Positions 5,271 through 17,267 of a stretch of DNA of 39,738 nt are shown here, one piece after another; the first letter of the stretch is position 1, and each line of letters starts with the position of its first letter. Position numbers and translations under genes: made by a program. The notes beneath the pieces are model-generated. The model was not told the origin of the DNA, did not search any database, and saw only the letters and a program-made list of their open reading frames with translations. Where the stretch lies: IMG/VR virus record IMGVR_UViG_3300035212_000888, positions 1 through 39,738 of that record. One strand, written 5' to 3'. Origin of the DNA: a virus.

Positions 5271-5392
5271 CGCCGGCCTCCAATCTTGTTGATGGCGTTG
5301 AGCAGGATGAAGCCGACAACGAGCAGTCCGGTAAGGGACATGAAGGTCGCATCGGTGAGGTAGCTGAGGACTTCCAGTGGTGTGGGTGTCAT
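5267..5392 (-). CDS. 41-residue single-pass membrane protein
   Basis: A tiny gene reading MTPTPLEVLSYLTD... with a hydrophobic helix (SLTGLLVVGFILLNAI, residues about 19-34) and a basic C-terminus (NKIGGRR), hence predicted N-out, C-in membrane topology. ATGA overlaps with both neighbours support translation. Function unknown; small early membrane proteins of phages are often involved in exclusion or host takeover. Confidence 0.55.
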   Translation of the reverse strand: MTPTPLEVLSYLTDATFMSLTGLLVVGFILLNAINKIGGRR

Positions 5393-5625
5393 GGTTGTGG
5401 TGTGTTGGTTTGTTGTGTCTGTCCACATGTGTCCACATGCGGAGCATTAAAAGTTCGCTCAGCGATGAATGCATTGAGGGCGCGCAGGCTGATCCGGGTG
5501 CCGCGCTGCGGGCCGACATGGAATGCCGGAAGCTCGCCGCTGGCAATGAAGCCGCGGAGCGTGGTGTTGCCTACGCGGAGGGCTCGTGCGGCTTCGGTGA
5601 CGGTGAGGGCGAGGTGGGCGTGCAT
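5389..5625 (-). CDS. MerR-like HTH protein, excisionase/repressor type
   Basis: 78 residues from the ATG at 5625. LTVTEAARALRVGNTTLRGF followed by IASGELPAFHVG and an RISLRALNAFI helix is the pattern of the small excisionase-type MerR-like HTH (HTH_17). It is the first gene of the leftward early operon and lies opposite a ribbon-helix-helix gene, so it may be the Cox/Xis-like or lysis-lysogeny regulator. An alternative ATG at 5691 would add 22 residues. The last codons run through a tandem TGTCCACATG repeat (5420-5439) that resembles the putative operator. Confidence 0.65.
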   Translation of the reverse strand: MHAHLALTVTEAARALRVGNTTLRGFIASGELPAFHVGPQRGTRISLRALNAFIAERTFNAPHVDTCGQTQQTNTPQP

Positions 5626-5738
5626 CGCAAGTGGAGATTCGCAGACACTTGTGGACACCGCAAGACATTTTTTCTTGCCCCTTGGGGTCATCACCCTATT
5701 TGACAAATGTCCGCAAGCGTCCCTAAGTTGCAACCGCT
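5626..5738. promoter_or_regulatory. divergent regulatory region with operator-like repeats
   Basis: Lies between the leftward HTH gene and the rightward ribbon-helix-helix gene. An imperfect palindrome CTTGTGG-ACA-CCGCAAG is at 5648-5664, and a half-site TGTCCGCAAG at 5708-5717. TTGACA at 5700-5705, followed 17 bp later by CTAAGT (5723-5728), is a possible rightward promoter overlapping that half-site. It would give a very short or absent leader before the ATG at 5739. Binding proteins are inferred, not shown. Confidence 0.45.
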
Positions 5739-7457: not shown

Positions 7458-8552
7458 TTAATCCGGCAGCTCGACCCGCTGATCCATCGTAGCGTAGTGC
7501 CGCTCCGTTGTGCTGCTAGTGGTGTGCCCAAGGAACCGCGACACGGTTGAGATCCGGCCAGTGGCGTTGAGCAGGTCGCTGCCTGCCTGCTTGCGTAGGC
7601 AGTAGAGCAAGTCCTTGCGCCCTGGGAGGAATTCCCTGAGCCAGTTGTTCATGATGCGCATGCACCAGTTGTGGCGCGTGTACGTTGTCCCCCCGGGCAC
7701 CATGTAGTCATCCGCTTCCAGTAGCTCCGCAGCGACCGCATCGGGCAGCACAATCTGCCGCTGCCGCCGTGATCCGGTCTTGAGCGTAAAGCCCTCCTCT
7801 GGCCGCTGAACGAGGAGCAGTTCATGCTTGTCTCCCCGCTTCTCAATCCAACTCTTCCGGCACGCCGCGATCTCAGTCGGCGTCATGCCACACCGCCGGG
7901 CCAGCAGGAACGCCCTGCGAATCCCGCCGCCGGCCAGCCTGCTCTTGTCCTCGAGCCGCTGCAGCACGTCCGCGGCGAGCGGAACGAAGGCGTCAAGGTT
8001 CGCCCGGATGCCGGTCTTGGCGGTCGCGTCGCGGAACTCTGCGAGGTCCGGCAAGTCAAAGCCCTCCCAGTCATTCGCCCTGCAAAAAACCGCGCGGCCC
8101 ATGGCGAGGTTGGTCTTCTGCGAGGCCGGCGCGAGCTGCGTCTTGCGCAGGAAGTCTGAGACCAGCTTCCGGTTGAGTCGGGTGAGGGGAAGTGCTCGGA
8201 GCTTGCCGCGGTCGGTCACGCCCAGGCTGTCGCGCAGAACCACCAGCAGTGCGTTGACGTTGTCCTTGCGGGAATCTACTTTGCTCGTCTGCAAATAATG
8301 ATCGCACGCCGCACCAATCGATTCGGACGAAGTCTTCCGGGTGAAGTCCTTAAGGGCCGTCAGCCCCGCGGTCGCCGTCTGGTCAAGGATGGCCTTGGCC
8401 TTGGCCTTGGCGGTCGGGAGGTCGGTGGTGCCGAGGCTTATGCGCTGCCGACCCTTCGAGGAGGGGTGCCGGAAATAGAGCCGGTAGAATGGCGAGGCGC
8501 CGATCTTGTGAAGTGTTCCGGTCAGTCCGCGGTGCCTAATGGTGGTGTCCAT
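7458..8552 (-). CDS. int: tyrosine recombinase/integrase with altered catalytic positions
   Basis: 364 residues from the ATG at 8552 (an in-frame TTG lies 9 bp upstream). It has an N-terminal arm-binding type domain (1-70), a SAM-like core-binding domain (75-180) and a catalytic domain (185-355). Visible catalytic-type residues are Lys258 in LKTG, Arg320 in YCLRKQAGS, His343 in FLGH and nucleophile Tyr353 in RHYA. The usual first Arg (GxR) is Thr224 in CGMTPTEI, and the usual box II His is Tyr317. The gene reads away from attP, which starts 162 bp upstream. It would integrate the phage into tRNA-Thr. Confidence 0.85.
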   Translation of the reverse strand: MDTTIRHRGLTGTLHKIGASPFYRLYFRHPSSKGRQRISLGTTDLPTAKAKAKAILDQTATAGLTALKDFTRKTSSESIGAACDHYLQTSKVDSRKDNVNALLVVLRDSLGVTDRGKLRALPLTRLNRKLVSDFLRKTQLAPASQKTNLAMGRAVFCRANDWEGFDLPDLAEFRDATAKTGIRANLDAFVPLAADVLQRLEDKSRLAGGGIRRAFLLARRCGMTPTEIAACRKSWIEKRGDKHELLLVQRPEEGFTLKTGSRRQRQIVLPDAVAAELLEADDYMVPGGTTYTRHNWCMRIMNNWLREFLPGRKDLLYCLRKQAGSDLLNATGRISTVSRFLGHTTSSTTERHYATMDQRVELPD

Positions 8553-8594
8553 GCGCAGCAATATGCAGCCGCCTGCGGCCGCTTGTCAACCGAC

Positions 8595-8645
8595 TGTGCC
8601 AGCACTGTGCCAAAGTGTGGCAGCACTGTGGCAGGTTGTGTGGCA
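8595..8645. promoter_or_regulatory. left-arm integrase binding sites (five TGTGSCA repeats)
   Basis: TGTGCCA at 8595-8601 and 8606-8612, then TGTGGCA at 8616-8622, 8627-8633 and 8639-8645. Starts are 11, 10, 11 and 12 bp apart, i.e. one per helical turn. They lie between the integrase gene and the attachment core, as arm-type sites do in lambda-like attP regions. Confidence 0.6.
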
Positions 8646-8713
8646 GAAACCTTCGATCTTGATAGCTCTTACGATAGCTTACTGAACAGTGTTTACAGAG
8701 TAACTTTCCAGAC

Positions 8714-8752
8714 GCCGGCATAGCTCAGCTGGTAGAGCACCTGATTTGTAAT
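8714..8752 (+). other. attP: attP core: 5' half of a tRNA-Thr(UGU) gene
   Basis: 39 bases match the 5' part of a tRNA-Thr: acceptor strand GCCGGCA, TA, D-arm GCTC-AGCTGGTA-GAGC, A, anticodon stem CCTGA, anticodon loop TTTGTAA (anticodon TGT) and the first T of the 3' strand. The match then stops, with no 3' half, so this is an attachment core rather than a working tRNA gene. It is flanked by repeat arms at 8595-8645 and 8792-8810 and by the integrase. Confidence 0.75.
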
Positions 8753-8791
8753 AAGCTGCTGTAGCCAGTGTCTATGCGGGTCTTCGAGGGG

Positions 8792-8810
8792 TGTGGCTGG
8801 CGGTGTGGCA
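8792..8810. promoter_or_regulatory. right-arm integrase binding sites
   Basis: TGTGGCT at 8792-8798 and TGTGGCA at 8804-8810, 12 bp apart, repeat the arm motif found on the other side of the core. They give a 5 + 2 arm arrangement around the tRNA-derived core. Confidence 0.5.
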
Positions 8811-8820
8811 CAAATGACGA

Positions 8821-8872: not shown

Positions 8873-9112
8873 TTAAGCTGTCTCTGCTTCCAGCTCCCGG
8901 TCCAGCGCCGTGTCAAAGCACGCCACCTTGTCCATGAGCTTTCCCTCGCCGTTCTCAAAGTCCTCGACGATCTTGACCATCTCAGCCTCGTCCATCTTGC
9001 GTGGGTTGTAAAACACGTTGAGATCCTGCACCGGGATTTGCTCCCAGCCCTCTGGGCCAGCGTCCTGATCAGTCACCAAAACGTGGTCATATTTCGGGTT
9101 GAAATTGCTCAT
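8873..9112 (-). CDS. small acidic late protein
   Basis: 79 residues, acidic (MDEAEMVKIVEDFENGEG...). The N-terminus NPKYDHVLVTDQDAGPEGWEQ resembles a short strand-turn segment. Unknown function. Start in an ATGA overlap with the giant polyvalent gene, so translated after it as the last late gene. Confidence 0.55.
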   Translation of the reverse strand: MSNFNPKYDHVLVTDQDAGPEGWEQIPVQDLNVFYNPRKMDEAEMVKIVEDFENGEGKLMDKVACFDTALDRELEAETA

Positions 9113-12100
9113 TTGAGGATCAACGGAATTTTACTCTTTTTCATCGTTCCCGCAACAGTTTCCTTCGTCCCGCCGCGGACCTTTGGATTTGGGTGATTCT
9201 TGGCGTAATCGGGGAACAGCTTTAGTGGATCGGCTGGCGCGTTAAGGATAAAGCTGTCCGCATTCTCCGGTCCCAGCATTACCCAATCGTAGGACGGATG
9301 CGGCCGGAATGTGCCAGAGGCCAGCAACTGATCGCGCAGCAGCCGTTCGTTGGCGCTCATCTTAGATTCTTCTTTGGCGTTCTTGCCGAAGTAAACCGCA
9401 AATGCATCGGCATCCTTTGAGAGTTGCACTACGCCGACTACGTCGAGGTTCTTGCCGTTCACAAAGTCCATGGAGTCATTCAGCATCGCCTTCACGTCCG
9501 GTGCAAATGGGATGCCGGTGATGCGGTCCATTGCCGCCCCGCGCTGCTTGAAGGAAAACCTTGCCGCCTCGTCCACAAACTTGGTGTTTCGGTATTTCGA
9601 CGACATCGCGCTGTACCAGGGCTCGTTGCGATATTTTGAGACAAGCGAGCCAAACTCTCCTTGAAACTCCTTCATGCGCCCGCGCGTTGAATGGCTCTTG
9701 AGAGGACTCAGCCGCGAAAGAAATTCAGCCATTGGGCGATACTTGGCAAACGTGGCGTTGTATTGCTTTTCCGCTTCGGCTAGTTCCGAGAGTTCCGCTT
9801 CTTTTTTAAGCACTTCTTTTGATAAGCGCTCAACTCGGGAGTAAGCCTGATTGATCCTGCCCTGCGGATTAATCGCACCAAGCTCAAGGAGCACATGCAA
9901 GAAGTCAGCCTGGTCGTCCGACATGCTGGCGCGCCGCGCGTCGATCTCGGCGGTCACATCCATGACGAACTTGCGGTTACTGCGGTGCGCGTTCTCCTTC
10001 ATGATCTGGATCAGCGCATGGCCGGCCGTTGTGTTTTTGACGATGTTTTTGGCGCGCGTGACGAAGCCGCTGTTCATGTTCGCCCACACCGGCTTGTAGC
10101 CTCGACCATCGGGAAGATAGACGACCGTCTGGTTGTTTATTAGGAAAGGATGCAGCGGGCCGCCCATGTTGTCGCCGCGCGTGTTGTGCCGGTCGGCCTC
10201 AAGCATTGCCACTTGCTCGCCGCTGATGCTGTCAATGCCAGCCACGCGAGGCTGCATGGTTGTCCTTGGGTCAACGTGATATTCCAGCACGCGCCCATCA
10301 GCCGTGGGCTTGGTGCCGATTATGTAGAAGCCACGATCAGGAACCTGCGGCGGCAGCGTGTAGTTGTCATCATGAACCACATCCGGCATCGCCTGCCCGC
10401 GCGCAGGCGTCCTGATGACAACTTGGTCATCGTTGAAAAACGCGCGCAGAGTGCTTTGGGGGTCAACAGGGAAGATTGCGTCATGACCGAGCGACTTGAG
10501 CCTGCGGACATCTTCCGGGCTAGGATCAATCAGCAAGTCTTGATCGCTGGTGTAATATGGGTTGCTTGCCCTGGCAGCCACATCGTACACGCGGCCGTCA
10601 TCGCGCAGGTCCGCATAGTATTCCGCGCCGGCTTCATCCGTTGAAATGTAGATGACGCCGTCCTTGCCGTCTTTTTGACGAGACCAAGGAGATGAAGCCT
10701 TCAGCCTCTGGATGCCTTTGGGTCCGCCGTGGAAGCCTTTTATGGGGTAATCCACGTCCGGCATGAACAACGCCTGCCCAGCCTTCTGGATACCGTCGCG
10801 CATCTGCGGGGTGATGTTGACGCGCCAGATCTTAGTTTGCTCTTTGGGCGGGTTTTCCCTGACGATGTATCCTTGGCCCGCTTTTTTTGCGGCAGCTTTT
10901 GCCTTGTCCATCGTTTCAAAGGCAGTGATTGCCCTGTTGTCTGGACCGACAACGTCAAACCGAAGGTCATCAAGCGGACCCAAAACCGTGATGCCAGATT
11001 TCTCCACCTGCGCACCCCACTGCTTCACATACTTGGCGACATCTTTTAGAACAATCTGATCGTAGAACCCTTCCATGCCCTTGCCGCCGATGGTCAGCGC
11101 GCTGCCCGAGAATCGCATCTTCTCTTGCTTGCCCTCAATGGCTTTGGTTGCCATTTCTTTGCCGATTAAATCAGCCAGTTTTTCTTGACCGACAGCACCA
11201 GAGTCAATGACCCGCTTCTCGCCTTTGTATCCGAAAACGTAATAGGACTGGCCGTCCTTGTCCTTGGTCACCTCAACGGCATCTAGATTGTCGGCGATCT
11301 GCTTGTCATACCGCGCCGCCTGCGTCTCCCCAGTCGTCCACCCAATCCATTCCTTGCCGTCCGCCACGGCGTCACGCAGGGCGCGCTTGAAGAGCTGCAG
11401 CGGCCAGCTTGTGCGGAAGGGGGCGTCGGGGACGCCGCCAGCAAGGGCGTCTCGTTGTCTAAGCAGGTCGCTCAGTTCTTGCTGCTCGCTTTTCGTGATT
11501 CCCCGCGAAGATTCTTTGCGGACAAGTTCGTTCAAGCGGTTTTTATTTAAGTCCTCACGATATCCCTTCTCCCGCCCCTGCTGATGCCTATCCGACTGCA
11601 GCTCCTCAATAAAAAGCCCCTGCTTGCCCTTGGCGTCCACCCGCTCGTTTAGGCGCATGTGGGCGATGTAGTTGGGAACATCTTGAAAGTGTGACGACAT
11701 CCATTCTTTTGGTCGCATCCCCATCGCTGACTCAATGGCCGCAATCTGGCTTTCTGATGCTGCGCGCTCCGTTGGCGAATCAGACGCATTAAACTTAATT
11801 GTTGCCTCTCGAAGTGCTTGTTTGAGGGTTTCTTTTGGAGGAATCGCCAGCACCACCTCGCGGTAGTTCTCGCCGCCGTCGAGCTGCCATTGAGCGTATT
11901 GGGTCTGGTTGCCGGTATTGTTGGCATCGCTGCCTAGCTGCTGGTCTTCGTATTCCAGCACGGCGCGCTCATACGCCGAAAAGTCTCTGCTTCTCTGCGC
12001 CTCTCTCTCAAGCTGGTCAATGTCGGCTTGCGTCCACTGCTTCTTGGCACCGCCCATCGTCACCTCCTCAAGTCTCACAGCCCCATCCTCAGCCAGATAC

Positions 12101-15100
12101 CTGAGCAACGCCTCCTTCGGCACCTTGCCGTTGTTCTCCTTGGCCAACCGCTCGACCTCCTGCATCACGCCGGTCCACTTCAGCTCCTCGGCCTTGATGC
12201 CGTTTTGCGGGTTGGTGAGGATAGCTTTGATCTGGTCAACGGTCGCCGCCTTGCCCTGCACCTTGGCGTCGAGGGCTTGGGAGGACTTGAGGTAGAATGG
12301 CGGGGCTTCCGAAATGTCCGGCATCGCCTGCCCGCGGGCAGCGGCGGGCTGCGAAATCCTCGCGCCATCGTAAACCGGATGCTCCTTGCCACGAATGCTA
12401 ATACGCCCGACCTCGTTGCCAAGCGACAGCTCTCCGCGCGCGGTTGGCCGCAGTCTAGGCTCGCTCGGCCTGTCCGAGTAGCGCGCCAGATCAACGCCGC
12501 CCTCAAAGTCGGCGCGCAGTGCGTACACATGTTGCCCGCCACCCTCAACCGACACGATGGTTGATGTCGCCGGCGCGTTGTCTGATATCCACTTCCACCC
12601 AGCCTTTTGCTTGAAGAGGTTTGTGCGGTATGTACGGCCAGACTTGGCGGGTTGCGCTGCGGGATCGCCGTCAACAAACAGCCGCGGCTTTCCAGACGAC
12701 ACGTCGATAAAGCCAGCGCCGTACGAGCGCCCGGTCAAATCATCGCCGCTCTGCGCGTCAAAGAATTTGCCGCCGCGCTCGTAGGACTCGATGGGGAAGC
12801 GCGCAAAAAATGGAGGCGGCTGCGCAAAGCGCGACTGGCGATTGGGCTCCTGGCCGGTTCCAGTGAATCGCTCAGGAACGACAGCAACATCCGGCATCGC
12901 CATGCCAGTCTGCGGGAGGGCGCTGGGCATGCGGTTGTTGTTCTCCTTGTCGTAGTCGAAGAAGTATCCGGTGCGGCCGGTGGGCTTGGCATCGTTGAGC
13001 CGGTCCACGCGCCAAGTGCGAAGGCTGCCCCTAGGGTTCAGCTCTGCGTAAAGGGGATTAGCCGCACGCTGCACAGCCGTGCCAGTGCCAATAAGTCCAT
13101 TGAGAATGTCTCGTTTGGCTTGACCGATGCCAGCCTCGCCGGGGCGACCTTCGCGGTGATTGGCCAGACGAATCTTTAGATCAGTCTCAACCTGCCTCAT
13201 GTCGTTGTTGAAGATACTCAGTTCGCCGCGGTTAATCGCCTTCATGGTCGCCGCGCGGAAGGCATTTAGGTCAATGGCCACAGCCAGCAGGTGGTTGGCC
13301 TTGGTCACCTGCCAGCCGAGCGGCACGGTCTCGCGCTGGATCGCGCGCACGTTGCCCAGGTTGGTCACACGGTAGCGTCCCGAGGCTCCGGTGCCGATGG
13401 CGTTGTAGTCGATGTCCCAGCTGCCGCCCTCAGCGCGGCTTTGCTCCATGGAGCGGGCAAACTCGCGGACGTGCTTGGGGAAGTTGGTGAAGAAGTCAAA
13501 CTGCGGCGGCAGCACCGGCCCGCCGACCACCTCGCGGCCGTTGACCTTACGCTTGCCGAACTCCTGCGAGTTGACCGGGACAAACTTGCGCGCATCGTAG
13601 AGCGTCTTGATCTGTGCGCTGCGGGCGTTCTCGGTCGCCGTGATGATCTTCTGCGGCTTGAGGCTGTAGGTGCCGTCTGGCTTTTGGAACAGGAAGTCAT
13701 TCTCTAGGACGCCGCGGCCCTCATCGCGCAGCTTCACATGCGTGCTCCGGGCTAAGTCTTCCGGCTTGCTGCTGCGGGCCAGCTCCACGCCGCGCAGCTC
13801 CTTCGCTCCGGCTTCCTCGAGGCCGGCGAGGTATTGGTCGTAGCTGCGAACGTATTCACGCACCCGCTTCTGCATGATGCGGTCTTGGAAAAGCGGATTG
13901 TCGCGGAAGAGCACCGAGGGGTTGTCCATCAGCTTGCCGGTGCCCGGGTCAAGGCGTGCGCCCATGACCTCCAGCACGCGCCCGCCGGCCGACAGCATGG
14001 ACTCGGCGAGGCGAGGGAACATGGCGTCACGGCGGATGGCCCGGAAGTCGATGGCCGGAGCCTCCGAGGCAAACGTCTCGGCAACGATCTCGTCGCGCGC
14101 CCAGTCTAAGGCGTCCTCGCCCTTGTCGATGCTGCGCTGGCGGAACTCCTCGACGCGCTCGTTAATCAGCCGGTCGCGCTCGGCGGGGTCTTTGGCTCGG
14201 TCGGCCACGATGTTGTCCATCGTCTTGCCGCCGTCCATTGCCTTCATCTCGGCATCGGTCAAAACTGTCGGTGCCTCGCCGGTCACGCCTTGGCGAAGGT
14301 CGGCGTCCACCATGCGGGCGATGTACTCGCGGCCGCGCGATTCAACGCCCCCGGGGCCGTACTGCTGGTTGACTAGGTTGCGCAGGTCGTTACGCGGCTG
14401 GCCGTCCAAGATGTTGCTGGTCAGGATGGCGTGTCCGATCTCATGCGGGGCGATGGCTTCGGTCGCTGTCTTGCCGTCCAAGTTGATGAAAACGCGCGCC
14501 CGGTTGTTGGCGTCCCGGTCAAGGAACACACCGGCCGTGGCCTCGCCGCCGTTCTGCGCGATGTCCGCGTTCATCCGGTACTCGTCGCCGGTCAGCGGAA
14601 CGAAATCGACCTTGCCGGCCAGCACGCCCTGCATGGCAGACAGGCGGTCCAGCGTGGCGTGCGGCAACCGCGCGAAGGCTTCGACGTTGCCGCCGACCGC
14701 CTGGACATCGGCAAACATCCGGGCGATGTCTGCGTCCGCCGCCGTGCCTGCCCGCCGGGCCACACCGCCAGCCAAGCCGCCCACACCGCCCAGTGCCAAG
14801 ATCCCGCCCATGACCTCACCCGCGCGCTCGGCGTCGGGTTGCAATGCGGCGAAGGGCGAGCCTACAATGCCTGCCGTCACGGCGCCGCTCACTGCGTCAT
14901 CCGCGGCTCTGGCAACCTGCGTTGCACCCATCCGGTCGGCAAATCTAGCCCCACGGCGAAGTGCCTCCGGGTTGCCAGAGTCCTGCGCGACACGCTTGAG
15001 GGTGCTGTCGGTGCCGTCAACGTATCCGGTGAAAAACTTGCGGTAGCGCTCCGGCACCGCGGCGTTGCCTGCCAGGCTGCTCGCTGCCTCTGCGCGGGCC

Positions 15101-16362
15101 ACGCCCAGGCCGCCAACGCCAGCCTCGCGCACGATGGTCGCCGCGCCGCCGGCCGCAGAGCCGACCTTGCGCAGCAGCCCGCCGCCGTAGTGCAGTGCAG
15201 GCATCACGGCACCCGCCATGAGGACCGCCTTGGTGATGCCGCCGCCGCCATCGGTCGCGCTGTCCACATAGACCGCCGTCCCGGCCACGCCTGCGCCCAG
15301 TGCCGCCTGCTGCTTTTGGGTCAGCCCGGTGATGTCCTGCAGCCGCGTCGAGATGCCCAACTCAACACGCTCGGCAACATCAGCCAGACCGCTGGCCACG
15401 CGCTCGGCGCCCAGCATTGGCTTTTCGGAAAGATTGGCGATGCGGCGTAGTACCCGGGCCTTACTCAGTGCACCGGCACCCAGAGGCAGGGCGTTGAGCG
15501 GATCAACGACCATGCTGCCCAGCGTCGAGATGGTCGGCATCGGCTGCTCATCGGTGATCTGGTAAGTTCCCGCGGAGGTCGGCACCGACATCTGGCCCTC
15601 GCCGGTCTTGAACTCGGAGACGTTGGCGAAGTCGCGCTCCAGCGCCTTCTCGCGCACATACCGCTCGTAAGCCTTGCCCTTGTCTTCGCGGGCTTGGTCT
15701 AGGGTCGGCGTGTAGGCTCCGGCCTCGCGCGCTTCAGCGAGTGCCGCCTGGTAGATCTGCTCGTCCTGCTCGCGGTCTCCGGTCACCTTGCCGTCAGCAA
15801 TTAGGCGGTCCATGATCCCGGCGTTGATCGCCTCGGCGCGCTTGCTTCCAGTGGCGAGGTCATCGACCTTGCTGCCCACCCAGTCAAAGAGCTGCACCAA
15901 GTTGATGCCGCCCTTGCGGATGATCTCCGCGCCGGTCTGCACGTTGCGCTGCACTTGGTTGACCGGGTCGGTCACCATACCCACCATCGCGCCCTGCAGC
16001 TCGCGGCCGGTCTCCGGGACCATGCCGATCAGTCCCGCGGCACCTTGTCCTAGCCCCTCAAAGAAGCGGCCGACCTCGCGGTCCTCCTTGTCGCGCCGGT
16101 CCCAGTACTGGTCAAACTCCTGCGGCGTCATGACGTAGTCCATGCGCCGGTAGTTCTCCTCCTCGAGTTGGTTGAGTTGGAACTCGGACAGCGCAACAGG
16201 CTCCTCCGGCTCCGGTGCCGGGGCTGGCTGCGGATTCATCCGCTGGGCGAATGGTGTGTACGCAATGGCGCCGGCGTTCTGGCCACTGACCAGCCCGGAC
16301 TCCTGCAGCTCTAAATCTGCAAGCTGTTGGTCGGTCAGACCGTCTATCGCTTCTTGTACCAT
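9109..16362 (-). CDS. giant polyvalent/internal virion protein with metallopeptidase and ADP-ribosyltransferase-like regions
   Basis: About 2417 residues from ATG 16362, which has GGGAG 10 bases upstream; a GTG at 16386 is also possible. Glycine-rich hydrophobic stretches near 350-420 and 510-540 could interact with membranes. Residues about 640-644 read HEIGH with a downstream DEIVAETFAS, a zinc metallopeptidase signature. Around 1585 is EELQSDRHQQGR, a motif of phage polyvalent proteins. About 1710-1790 holds LTIGGKGMEGFYDQI. About 1870-1985 (KGFHGGPKGI...VIYISTDEAGAEYYAD...YDVAARASNPY) resembles ART-PolyVal ADP-ribosyltransferases. The motif MPD(V/I) recurs near 1155, 1346, 1866 and 1991 at apparent domain borders. 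It is encoded after three internal-virion-type genes, so it is probably packaged and ejected into the host. Confidence 0.75.
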   Translation of the reverse strand: MVQEAIDGLTDQQLADLELQESGLVSGQNAGAIAYTPFAQRMNPQPAPAPEPEEPVALSEFQLNQLEEENYRRMDYVMTPQEFDQYWDRRDKEDREVGRFFEGLGQGAAGLIGMVPETGRELQGAMVGMVTDPVNQVQRNVQTGAEIIRKGGINLVQLFDWVGSKVDDLATGSKRAEAINAGIMDRLIADGKVTGDREQDEQIYQAALAEAREAGAYTPTLDQAREDKGKAYERYVREKALERDFANVSEFKTGEGQMSVPTSAGTYQITDEQPMPTISTLGSMVVDPLNALPLGAGALSKARVLRRIANLSEKPMLGAERVASGLADVAERVELGISTRLQDITGLTQKQQAALGAGVAGTAVYVDSATDGGGGITKAVLMAGAVMPALHYGGGLLRKVGSAAGGAATIVREAGVGGLGVARAEAASSLAGNAAVPERYRKFFTGYVDGTDSTLKRVAQDSGNPEALRRGARFADRMGATQVARAADDAVSGAVTAGIVGSPFAALQPDAERAGEVMGGILALGGVGGLAGGVARRAGTAADADIARMFADVQAVGGNVEAFARLPHATLDRLSAMQGVLAGKVDFVPLTGDEYRMNADIAQNGGEATAGVFLDRDANNRARVFINLDGKTATEAIAPHEIGHAILTSNILDGQPRNDLRNLVNQQYGPGGVESRGREYIARMVDADLRQGVTGEAPTVLTDAEMKAMDGGKTMDNIVADRAKDPAERDRLINERVEEFRQRSIDKGEDALDWARDEIVAETFASEAPAIDFRAIRRDAMFPRLAESMLSAGGRVLEVMGARLDPGTGKLMDNPSVLFRDNPLFQDRIMQKRVREYVRSYDQYLAGLEEAGAKELRGVELARSSKPEDLARSTHVKLRDEGRGVLENDFLFQKPDGTYSLKPQKIITATENARSAQIKTLYDARKFVPVNSQEFGKRKVNGREVVGGPVLPPQFDFFTNFPKHVREFARSMEQSRAEGGSWDIDYNAIGTGASGRYRVTNLGNVRAIQRETVPLGWQVTKANHLLAVAIDLNAFRAATMKAINRGELSIFNNDMRQVETDLKIRLANHREGRPGEAGIGQAKRDILNGLIGTGTAVQRAANPLYAELNPRGSLRTWRVDRLNDAKPTGRTGYFFDYDKENNNRMPSALPQTGMAMPDVAVVPERFTGTGQEPNRQSRFAQPPPFFARFPIESYERGGKFFDAQSGDDLTGRSYGAGFIDVSSGKPRLFVDGDPAAQPAKSGRTYRTNLFKQKAGWKWISDNAPATSTIVSVEGGGQHVYALRADFEGGVDLARYSDRPSEPRLRPTARGELSLGNEVGRISIRGKEHPVYDGARISQPAAARGQAMPDISEAPPFYLKSSQALDAKVQGKAATVDQIKAILTNPQNGIKAEELKWTGVMQEVERLAKENNGKVPKEALLRYLAEDGAVRLEEVTMGGAKKQWTQADIDQLEREAQRSRDFSAYERAVLEYEDQQLGSDANNTGNQTQYAQWQLDGGENYREVVLAIPPKETLKQALREATIKFNASDSPTERAASESQIAAIESAMGMRPKEWMSSHFQDVPNYIAHMRLNERVDAKGKQGLFIEELQSDRHQQGREKGYREDLNKNRLNELVRKESSRGITKSEQQELSDLLRQRDALAGGVPDAPFRTSWPLQLFKRALRDAVADGKEWIGWTTGETQAARYDKQIADNLDAVEVTKDKDGQSYYVFGYKGEKRVIDSGAVGQEKLADLIGKEMATKAIEGKQEKMRFSGSALTIGGKGMEGFYDQIVLKDVAKYVKQWGAQVEKSGITVLGPLDDLRFDVVGPDNRAITAFETMDKAKAAAKKAGQGYIVRENPPKEQTKIWRVNITPQMRDGIQKAGQALFMPDVDYPIKGFHGGPKGIQRLKASSPWSRQKDGKDGVIYISTDEAGAEYYADLRDDGRVYDVAARASNPYYTSDQDLLIDPSPEDVRRLKSLGHDAIFPVDPQSTLRAFFNDDQVVIRTPARGQAMPDVVHDDNYTLPPQVPDRGFYIIGTKPTADGRVLEYHVDPRTTMQPRVAGIDSISGEQVAMLEADRHNTRGDNMGGPLHPFLINNQTVVYLPDGRGYKPVWANMNSGFVTRAKNIVKNTTAGHALIQIMKENAHRSNRKFVMDVTAEIDARRASMSDDQADFLHVLLELGAINPQGRINQAYSRVERLSKEVLKKEAELSELAEAEKQYNATFAKYRPMAEFLSRLSPLKSHSTRGRMKEFQGEFGSLVSKYRNEPWYSAMSSKYRNTKFVDEAARFSFKQRGAAMDRITGIPFAPDVKAMLNDSMDFVNGKNLDVVGVVQLSKDADAFAVYFGKNAKEESKMSANERLLRDQLLASGTFRPHPSYDWVMLGPENADSFILNAPADPLKLFPDYAKNHPNPKVRGGTKETVAGTMKKSKIPLILK

Positions 16363-17267
16363 TTTCCGTCGTCTCCCTTTTCCCACATGATTCCACTAAT
16401 GGTTTTGGTCGGACGCGGGGCCGCTGCTGTGGCGGCCGGCGCGGACGGTTGTTGGACAATCTCGCCGCTCGTAGCGCGCTTCTCGGCCCTGTCGAGGACG
16501 GACATAAAGTCATTCATCGACTTCTTGAAGCCCTCTTCGCTCTGCGACTGCTGCGCGCGGACGATGGCTTGCGTAGCCTTCTCGCCCTCAACCTGGGTGA
16601 TCTGACCGCCGCCCTTGAGACTTTCAAACGCCTGCAAGAACGCGCCGCCCTGCACCTGGTCGAGGAGAGCCTTAAAGTCAGCCTCCTTCGTTCCGGCAAT
16701 CGGCTCGCTTTTGAGTCCGAAGAGGTAGGCTTGGTTCTTGGCGCCGACCGAGCCGGAAAAGCCCGGGTGGGTCAGCACGTCATTGATCGTGCCGCGCATG
16801 CTGCCGATGGTGTCGAGCGTGGACTGCTGCCGCTGAACCCTTTGCGTCTTCATTGCCTCAGACTCTGTCTGAAGTCGATTCTGCTGCGCTTGGCGAACTG
16901 GGTCAGACGCCTGCACCTGCATCCTTGACTCGGCCTCCATGCGGCGGGTCATTTGCGAGGTAATAAACTGAGCGGCCGACTCCGGCGTGAACTGAACGCC
17001 GCGCTTCATTGCCTTGAGAAGCTCCTGCTGCTCCGAGGGCAACGCATCAAAGTCCTCGCGGGTCTGCACGTTGAGCGAGTTGAAGTCAAAGCCCACTCCG
17101 GTCTCCGGCAGGGGAGCCTGCGCCACGTCCTGAGCCACGGCATCGGGCACGCCGCCGTAGAGGCTGTCGGCAAAGATTGGGTCTTCGCCCGGCATCATTG
17201 GGGCGTCGAACTCGTTGAGCGGTGGGAGGTCCGGCTCGACCGGAGGTGGTAGTTGTTGCGGAGGCAT
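16344..17267 (-). CDS. putative internal virion protein
   Basis: 307 residues. Pro/Asp-rich N-terminus (1-70), then long helical, Gln-rich segments (DPVRQAQQNRLQTESEAM) and a C-terminal Ala/Pro linker ending KGDDGKWYKKR. No enzymatic motif. It overlaps the start of the giant gene by 19 bp and sits in a run of four genes shaped like podovirus ejection proteins. The role is inferred from position. Confidence 0.5.
   Translation of the reverse strand: MPPQQLPPPVEPDLPPLNEFDAPMMPGEDPIFADSLYGGVPDAVAQDVAQAPLPETGVGFDFNSLNVQTREDFDALPSEQQELLKAMKRGVQFTPESAAQFITSQMTRRMEAESRMQVQASDPVRQAQQNRLQTESEAMKTQRVQRQQSTLDTIGSMRGTINDVLTHPGFSGSVGAKNQAYLFGLKSEPIAGTKEADFKALLDQVQGGAFLQAFESLKGGGQITQVEGEKATQAIVRAQQSQSEEGFKKSMNDFMSVLDRAEKRATSGEIVQQPSAPAATAAAPRPTKTISGIMWEKGDDGKWYKKR

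Follow-up and report, generated by a model that had tools for sequence, protein, structure and literature searches.

How can a phage integrate into a tRNA gene when its attachment core carries the 5' half of that gene, the promoter-side half? The window, meaning the whole 39,738-base stretch of DNA that we analyzed, is a contig of a freshwater bacterial virus encoding an SU10-like capsid protein, a terminase, a DnaB helicase, and an amidase, together with a weak match to an SU10-like portal protein. It also holds an open reading frame of 2,425 amino acids (9109-16386, minus strand) with no Pfam match at an E value of 0.001. At 8714-8752 the window reads GCCGGCATAGCTCAGCTGGTAGAGCACCTGATTTGTAAT, an exact match to nt 1-39 of tRNA-Thr(UGU), which bears out the claim of the earlier note that the core is a 5' half running from the first base of the acceptor stem to the anticodon loop. 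These 39 bases span the 5' strand of the acceptor stem, the D arm, the 5' strand of the anticodon stem, the full loop, and one base of the 3' anticodon stem, and an exact match of this length far exceeds chance. The core and its parts are the following:

8714-8752, plus strand: putative attP core, nt 1-39 of tRNA-Thr(UGU), assigned from the sequence, the relatives, and the host genes
8745-8751, plus strand: anticodon loop TTTGTAA, where the 7-bp overlap (crossover) likely lies, from the sequence and from the end of host identity at nt 39
8740-8744 (CCTGA) and 8752-8756 (TAAGC): would-be core-type arms, from the layout

Judged by the standard layout of tyrosine integrase sites, the loop is likely the crossover region and these flanking pentamers its core-type arms. 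Similarity to the tRNA stops past 8752, no tRNA was called by ARAGORN anywhere in the window, and the Rfam score at the core was that of a sub-threshold tRNA (18.3 bits, with a cut-off of 29). The segment after the core (8753-8782) ends in TGCGGGT, which could pair with six of the seven acceptor bases and is conserved among relatives. This segment and the degenerate Rfam tRNA could represent a decayed 3' half or a chance resemblance.

The surroundings of the core are those of an integration module, with the following features:

7458-8561, minus strand: tyrosine integrase gene (int), divergent from the tRNA half, with an ATG at 8552 and an upstream TTG at 8561
8560-8589, minus strand: int promoter candidate, the consensus-like TTGACA-18-CATATT, directly before the ATG at 8552
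8595-8649, no strand assigned: array of TGTGSCA repeats on the left side, candidate arm sites for Int, from a repeat search
8792-8814, no strand assigned: right arm, resembling 8627-8649 at 83%, likewise with candidate arm sites for Int
5389-5733, minus strand: excisionase-like open reading frame (PHROG 66, E value of 1.6e-6)

The int gene lies upstream of the core and reads away from it, with 152 to 161 bp between its start and the core. Its identification as a tyrosine recombinase near the site comes from a PHROG integrase match (E value of 7.5e-21) and a Pfam Phage_integrase match that falls under the Pfam cut-off (E value of 1.5e-4); the integrase had no match in the phage collection. Since the promoter candidate ends 8 bases before the ATG at 8552, the int message may be leaderless. 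Repeats on both sides of the core are the layout expected of Int arm sites. Being a 5' half that adjoins int and stands between arm-type repeats, 8714-8752 is very probably the attP core. Because phage genes flank it on both sides, the site would be an attP as carried by a free or excised genome, as opposed to an integrated copy.

The same site was found beside the integrase region in eight other viral contigs by integrase-based and core-based scans, and their 39-mers were identical to that of the window or had one base changed. Two of these contigs (L007 and L008) are identical across their shared 3,863 bases. The sole variable base of the core is C6, changed to T in L004 and in L007/L008; the change keeps a G-U pair, and T6 is also found in host genes. 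Among the relatives, the left repeats and the first ~70 residues of Int diverge, and the core and the right side are retained. It is very improbable that the 39 bases have no part in integration, being host DNA picked up by the phage or the product of an assembly join, with the true attP elsewhere. Such an origin would agree with the absence of any lysogen junction of the window phage from GTDB 220, but the relatives share the place of the core beside int, arm-type repeats flank it, and a distant integrase homologue has the same layout. The layout shared by the relatives also led us to reject a mis-binned fragment or an assembly chimera.

Two pairs of relatives show changes of their own. In L007/L008 the integrase is broken: it has lost, or has other sequence in place of, residues 1-114 and the greater part of 162-314. 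The left arm repeats are absent as well, yet the 39-nt core (T6) is intact; this relative has probably lost integration. In L005/L006 the left repeats have changed from TGTGSCA to AGTCTGNCC-type units along with the N-terminal part of Int, and the right arm is still TGTGGCA. Arm sites and arm-binding domain are possibly co-evolving in this pair.

Where would such a core recombine? The 39-mer, with C or T at nt 6, occurs at 56 places in GTDB 220, nearly all of them intact tRNA-Thr(UGU) genes, in Chthoniobacterales/Spartobacteria MAGs and several alphaproteobacteria. When the phage was compared with four host genes, identity started 0 to 4 nt from nt 1 of the tRNA and ended at nt 39, so that the 5' end is carried and the break, at nt 40, falls inside the gene. 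Joining the phage 5' side to the host 3' half in silico (attR) gave a tRNA-Thr(UGU) in 15/15 combinations; the terminal fragment in attP is thus able to rebuild the gene. The in silico attL gave a tRNA in none of the combinations tested. The 39-nt 5' half recurs in an alphaproteobacterial MAG (L030, NVTJ01000009.1), in an attP-like site that is accompanied by an integrase of its own and is akin to the Robiginitomaculum element described below. The tRNA flanks of L023 (Acidobacteria) and of L031 and L068 (Sulfopaludibacter) are Hyphomonadaceae-like, and the titles of these records look wrong.

The host order is likely the Chthoniobacterales (Verrucomicrobiota), in freshwater, as suggested by homologues of the phage proteins; the order was named after the titles of its members' records. 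Capsid homologues (35 to 51% identity) were found in 5/210 Chthoniobacterales genomes, versus 0/210 and 0/209 in two alphaproteobacterial orders, and integrase homologues in 8/213 Chthoniobacterales genomes, versus 0/249. Tetranucleotides agreed weakly with the Chthoniobacterales and are not decisive for host assignment. One record (L058/G017) also has a title that looks wrong, being labelled Proteobacteria when its genome falls in the order Chthoniobacterales.

Taken together, we think it highly probable that the virus is a temperate tailed phage whose core at 8714-8752 recombines at a host tRNA-Thr(UGU) gene, with phage sequence driving the rebuilt tRNA. The integrase would recombine attP with the anticodon loop of the host gene. 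At attL, the host promoter and the host 5' half would be stranded, facing phage DNA (8753 onward), in the order Chthoniobacterales flank, core, and AAGCTGCTGT. At attR, phage DNA (to 8713) and the phage 5' half would be joined to the host 3' half, by which a complete tRNA-Thr would be rebuilt. Transcription of this gene would begin in the phage sequence that precedes 8714 and would diverge from that of int.

The earlier note had proposed looking for both junctions in prophages integrated at tRNA-Thr(UGU). GTDB 220 contained neither an integrated copy of the window phage or a close relative nor the attP/attL junction. Both junctions and the promoter swap were seen in independent elements. Caenispirillum bisanense has two copies of the 5' half 23.8 kb apart; one runs into element DNA, and the other is followed by the host 3' half and preceded by a TTGACA and a divergent P4-like integrase gene. 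A Robiginitomaculum MAG has two copies ~10 kb apart, with int adjoining the rebuilt gene. Within the Chthoniobacterales, four genomes (G148, G162, G196, and G143) have an intact tRNA on the same contig as a bare 5' half, the repeat covering nt 1-39/40. Three further pairs are less clean: the two copies differ at nt 16 in G160, the outer copy in G165 comes with its own 3' half, and both upstream flanks are alike in G201. An integrase-like open reading frame with the RHxxR...Y motif lies directly upstream of, and divergent from, the rebuilt tRNAs of G162, G165, G160, and G142, and the same arrangement, as in the window, was seen at the inner tandem site of G143. BLAST showed no close similarity between these integrases and that of the window, so at least two int lineages share the design. 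By analogy with these elements, the window phage would do likewise in a freshwater Chthoniobacterales host.

Distant homologues of the window integrase were also found next to tRNA genes. One (L086) adjoins a bare 5' half of tRNA-Thr(CGU), the intact host copy being on another contig, and another (L092) adjoins tRNA-Lys(CUU), with another 5' half plus an int start at a distance of 45 kb. A tRNA-Thr 3' fragment lies ~3 kb from int in L087. Rfam found no tRNA fragment at four other homologues (L088, L090, L093, and L094), a weak negative, since it also missed the known 5' half of L086. Three 5'-type elements (L168, L172, and L177) have a 3' half of their own after the core, and their attL copy looks like a near-complete tRNA-Thr.

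If the promoter-side half of the gene is replaced, as the earlier note reasoned, the element has to supply both the 5' half and the transcription start. The flank swap seen in other elements supports this interpretation. The intact tRNA of G145 has a native flank, TTGTCG-17-TACACT, which also precedes the stranded 5' halves of G143, G148, and G142 (z of 11 to 15) and is absent before the rebuilt tRNAs (z of 0.3 to 2.1), whose flanks resemble one another. In these Chthoniobacterales elements the host promoter flank remains with the stranded half at attL, and an element-borne flank comes to precede the rebuilt tRNA. For the window, the region concerned is the following:

8670-8713, plus strand: region where the promoter of the rebuilt tRNA would have to lie, with no convincing hexamers in the window

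The TTGATA pointed out earlier is present at 8659-8664, and, in line with the lack of a good -10 noted with it, no sigma-70-like pair stood clearly above shuffles. The best promoter score before the core was matched by 17% of shuffles, a consensus scoring without power here, as host tRNA-Thr flanks of the same order score equally badly. In L004-L006 a TAGAAT ends 9 nt before nt 1 of the tRNA, and the window has AGTAAC at the aligned place; a TTCACT is found at the same distance (9 nt) in the host L047. We give little credence to the reading that 8714-8752 is an attP core but the rebuilt gene yields no functional tRNA, other tRNA-Thr genes covering the codons. This would suit the want of a convincing promoter before 8714 and the presence of more than one full tRNA-Thr(UGU) copy in some Chthoniobacterales genomes. 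Against it, all 39 bases are conserved, acceptor stem included, far beyond what a crossover in the anticodon loop needs, and the single core change retains a G-U pair.

Phages can also guard their host against the loss of a tRNA gene in another way. In the tRNA-dependent lysogeny of mycobacteriophages, the gene is destroyed by integration and complemented by a complete tRNA gene of the phage, with a core of ~10 bp (PMC10865867). That the window phage compensates in this manner is extremely improbable, known as the strategy is, since the window has no tRNA gene and its shared core of 39 bp rebuilds the gene by rejoining a half. Archaeal pTN3-like integrases resemble the window in that their attB is a tRNA 5' half and integration places a new promoter upstream of the rebuilt tRNA, but their attP lies inside int, which is split on integration (PMC8371274), whereas the core of the window lies outside int, at least 152 bp away. 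The Caenispirillum bisanense, Robiginitomaculum, and Chthoniobacterales elements share with the window the same tRNA, a core of about nt 1-39, and an int that is upstream and mostly divergent; their integrases, the distant homologues L086 and L092 aside, have no close similarity to the window integrase.

Recombination with the 5' part of tRNA genes has been described as considerably rarer (PMC6563490) and, for bacteria, as seldom met (PMC8371274). The Islander collection holds 159 islands with a 5' tDNA fragment and 3,760 with a 3' fragment, of 3,919 (PMC4383910), in agreement with the earlier remark that most tRNA-integrating elements carry the 3' part. As far as these sources describe them, the Islander 5' islands and the reversed element of Zhao and Williams (2002; via PMC6563490) resemble the window in that the 5' end is displaced and the element gives a new 5' part and flank; they differ from it in that the window is a free virus genome, not a mapped island, and its likely host belongs to an uncultured freshwater lineage. 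Since the 5'-fragment configuration has already been described, the phage is a newly found example of a rare, known type.

What may be novel is the frequency of the 5' type at tRNA-Thr(UGU) in Chthoniobacterales. Among 213 genomes of the order, we verified 10 bare tRNA-Thr(UGU) fragments of the 5' type and 17 of the 3' type (10/27), far above 4% (Fisher test against Islander, P = 7e-8, with kinship uncorrected). This count covers one tRNA in draft genomes under filters other than those of Islander and takes no account of kinship, so the 5' frequency is a lead and not a result. We tentatively suggest, with less than even confidence, that in this order promoter-side replacement may be common, not a 4% oddity, and shared by several integrase lineages, with phages of the kind seen here driving a host tRNA from a promoter of their own.

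The phage family described here enlarges the small group of elements that replace the promoter-side part of a tRNA gene with their own. The unoccupied site of G145 and the occupied ones of G143 and G148 are natural sites at which the promoter swap can be read directly. The counts suggest that the rarity of 5'-type elements varies among host groups. If promoter-side replacement is indeed common in the Chthoniobacterales, expression of a host tRNA from a phage promoter could make host fitness depend on prophage retention.
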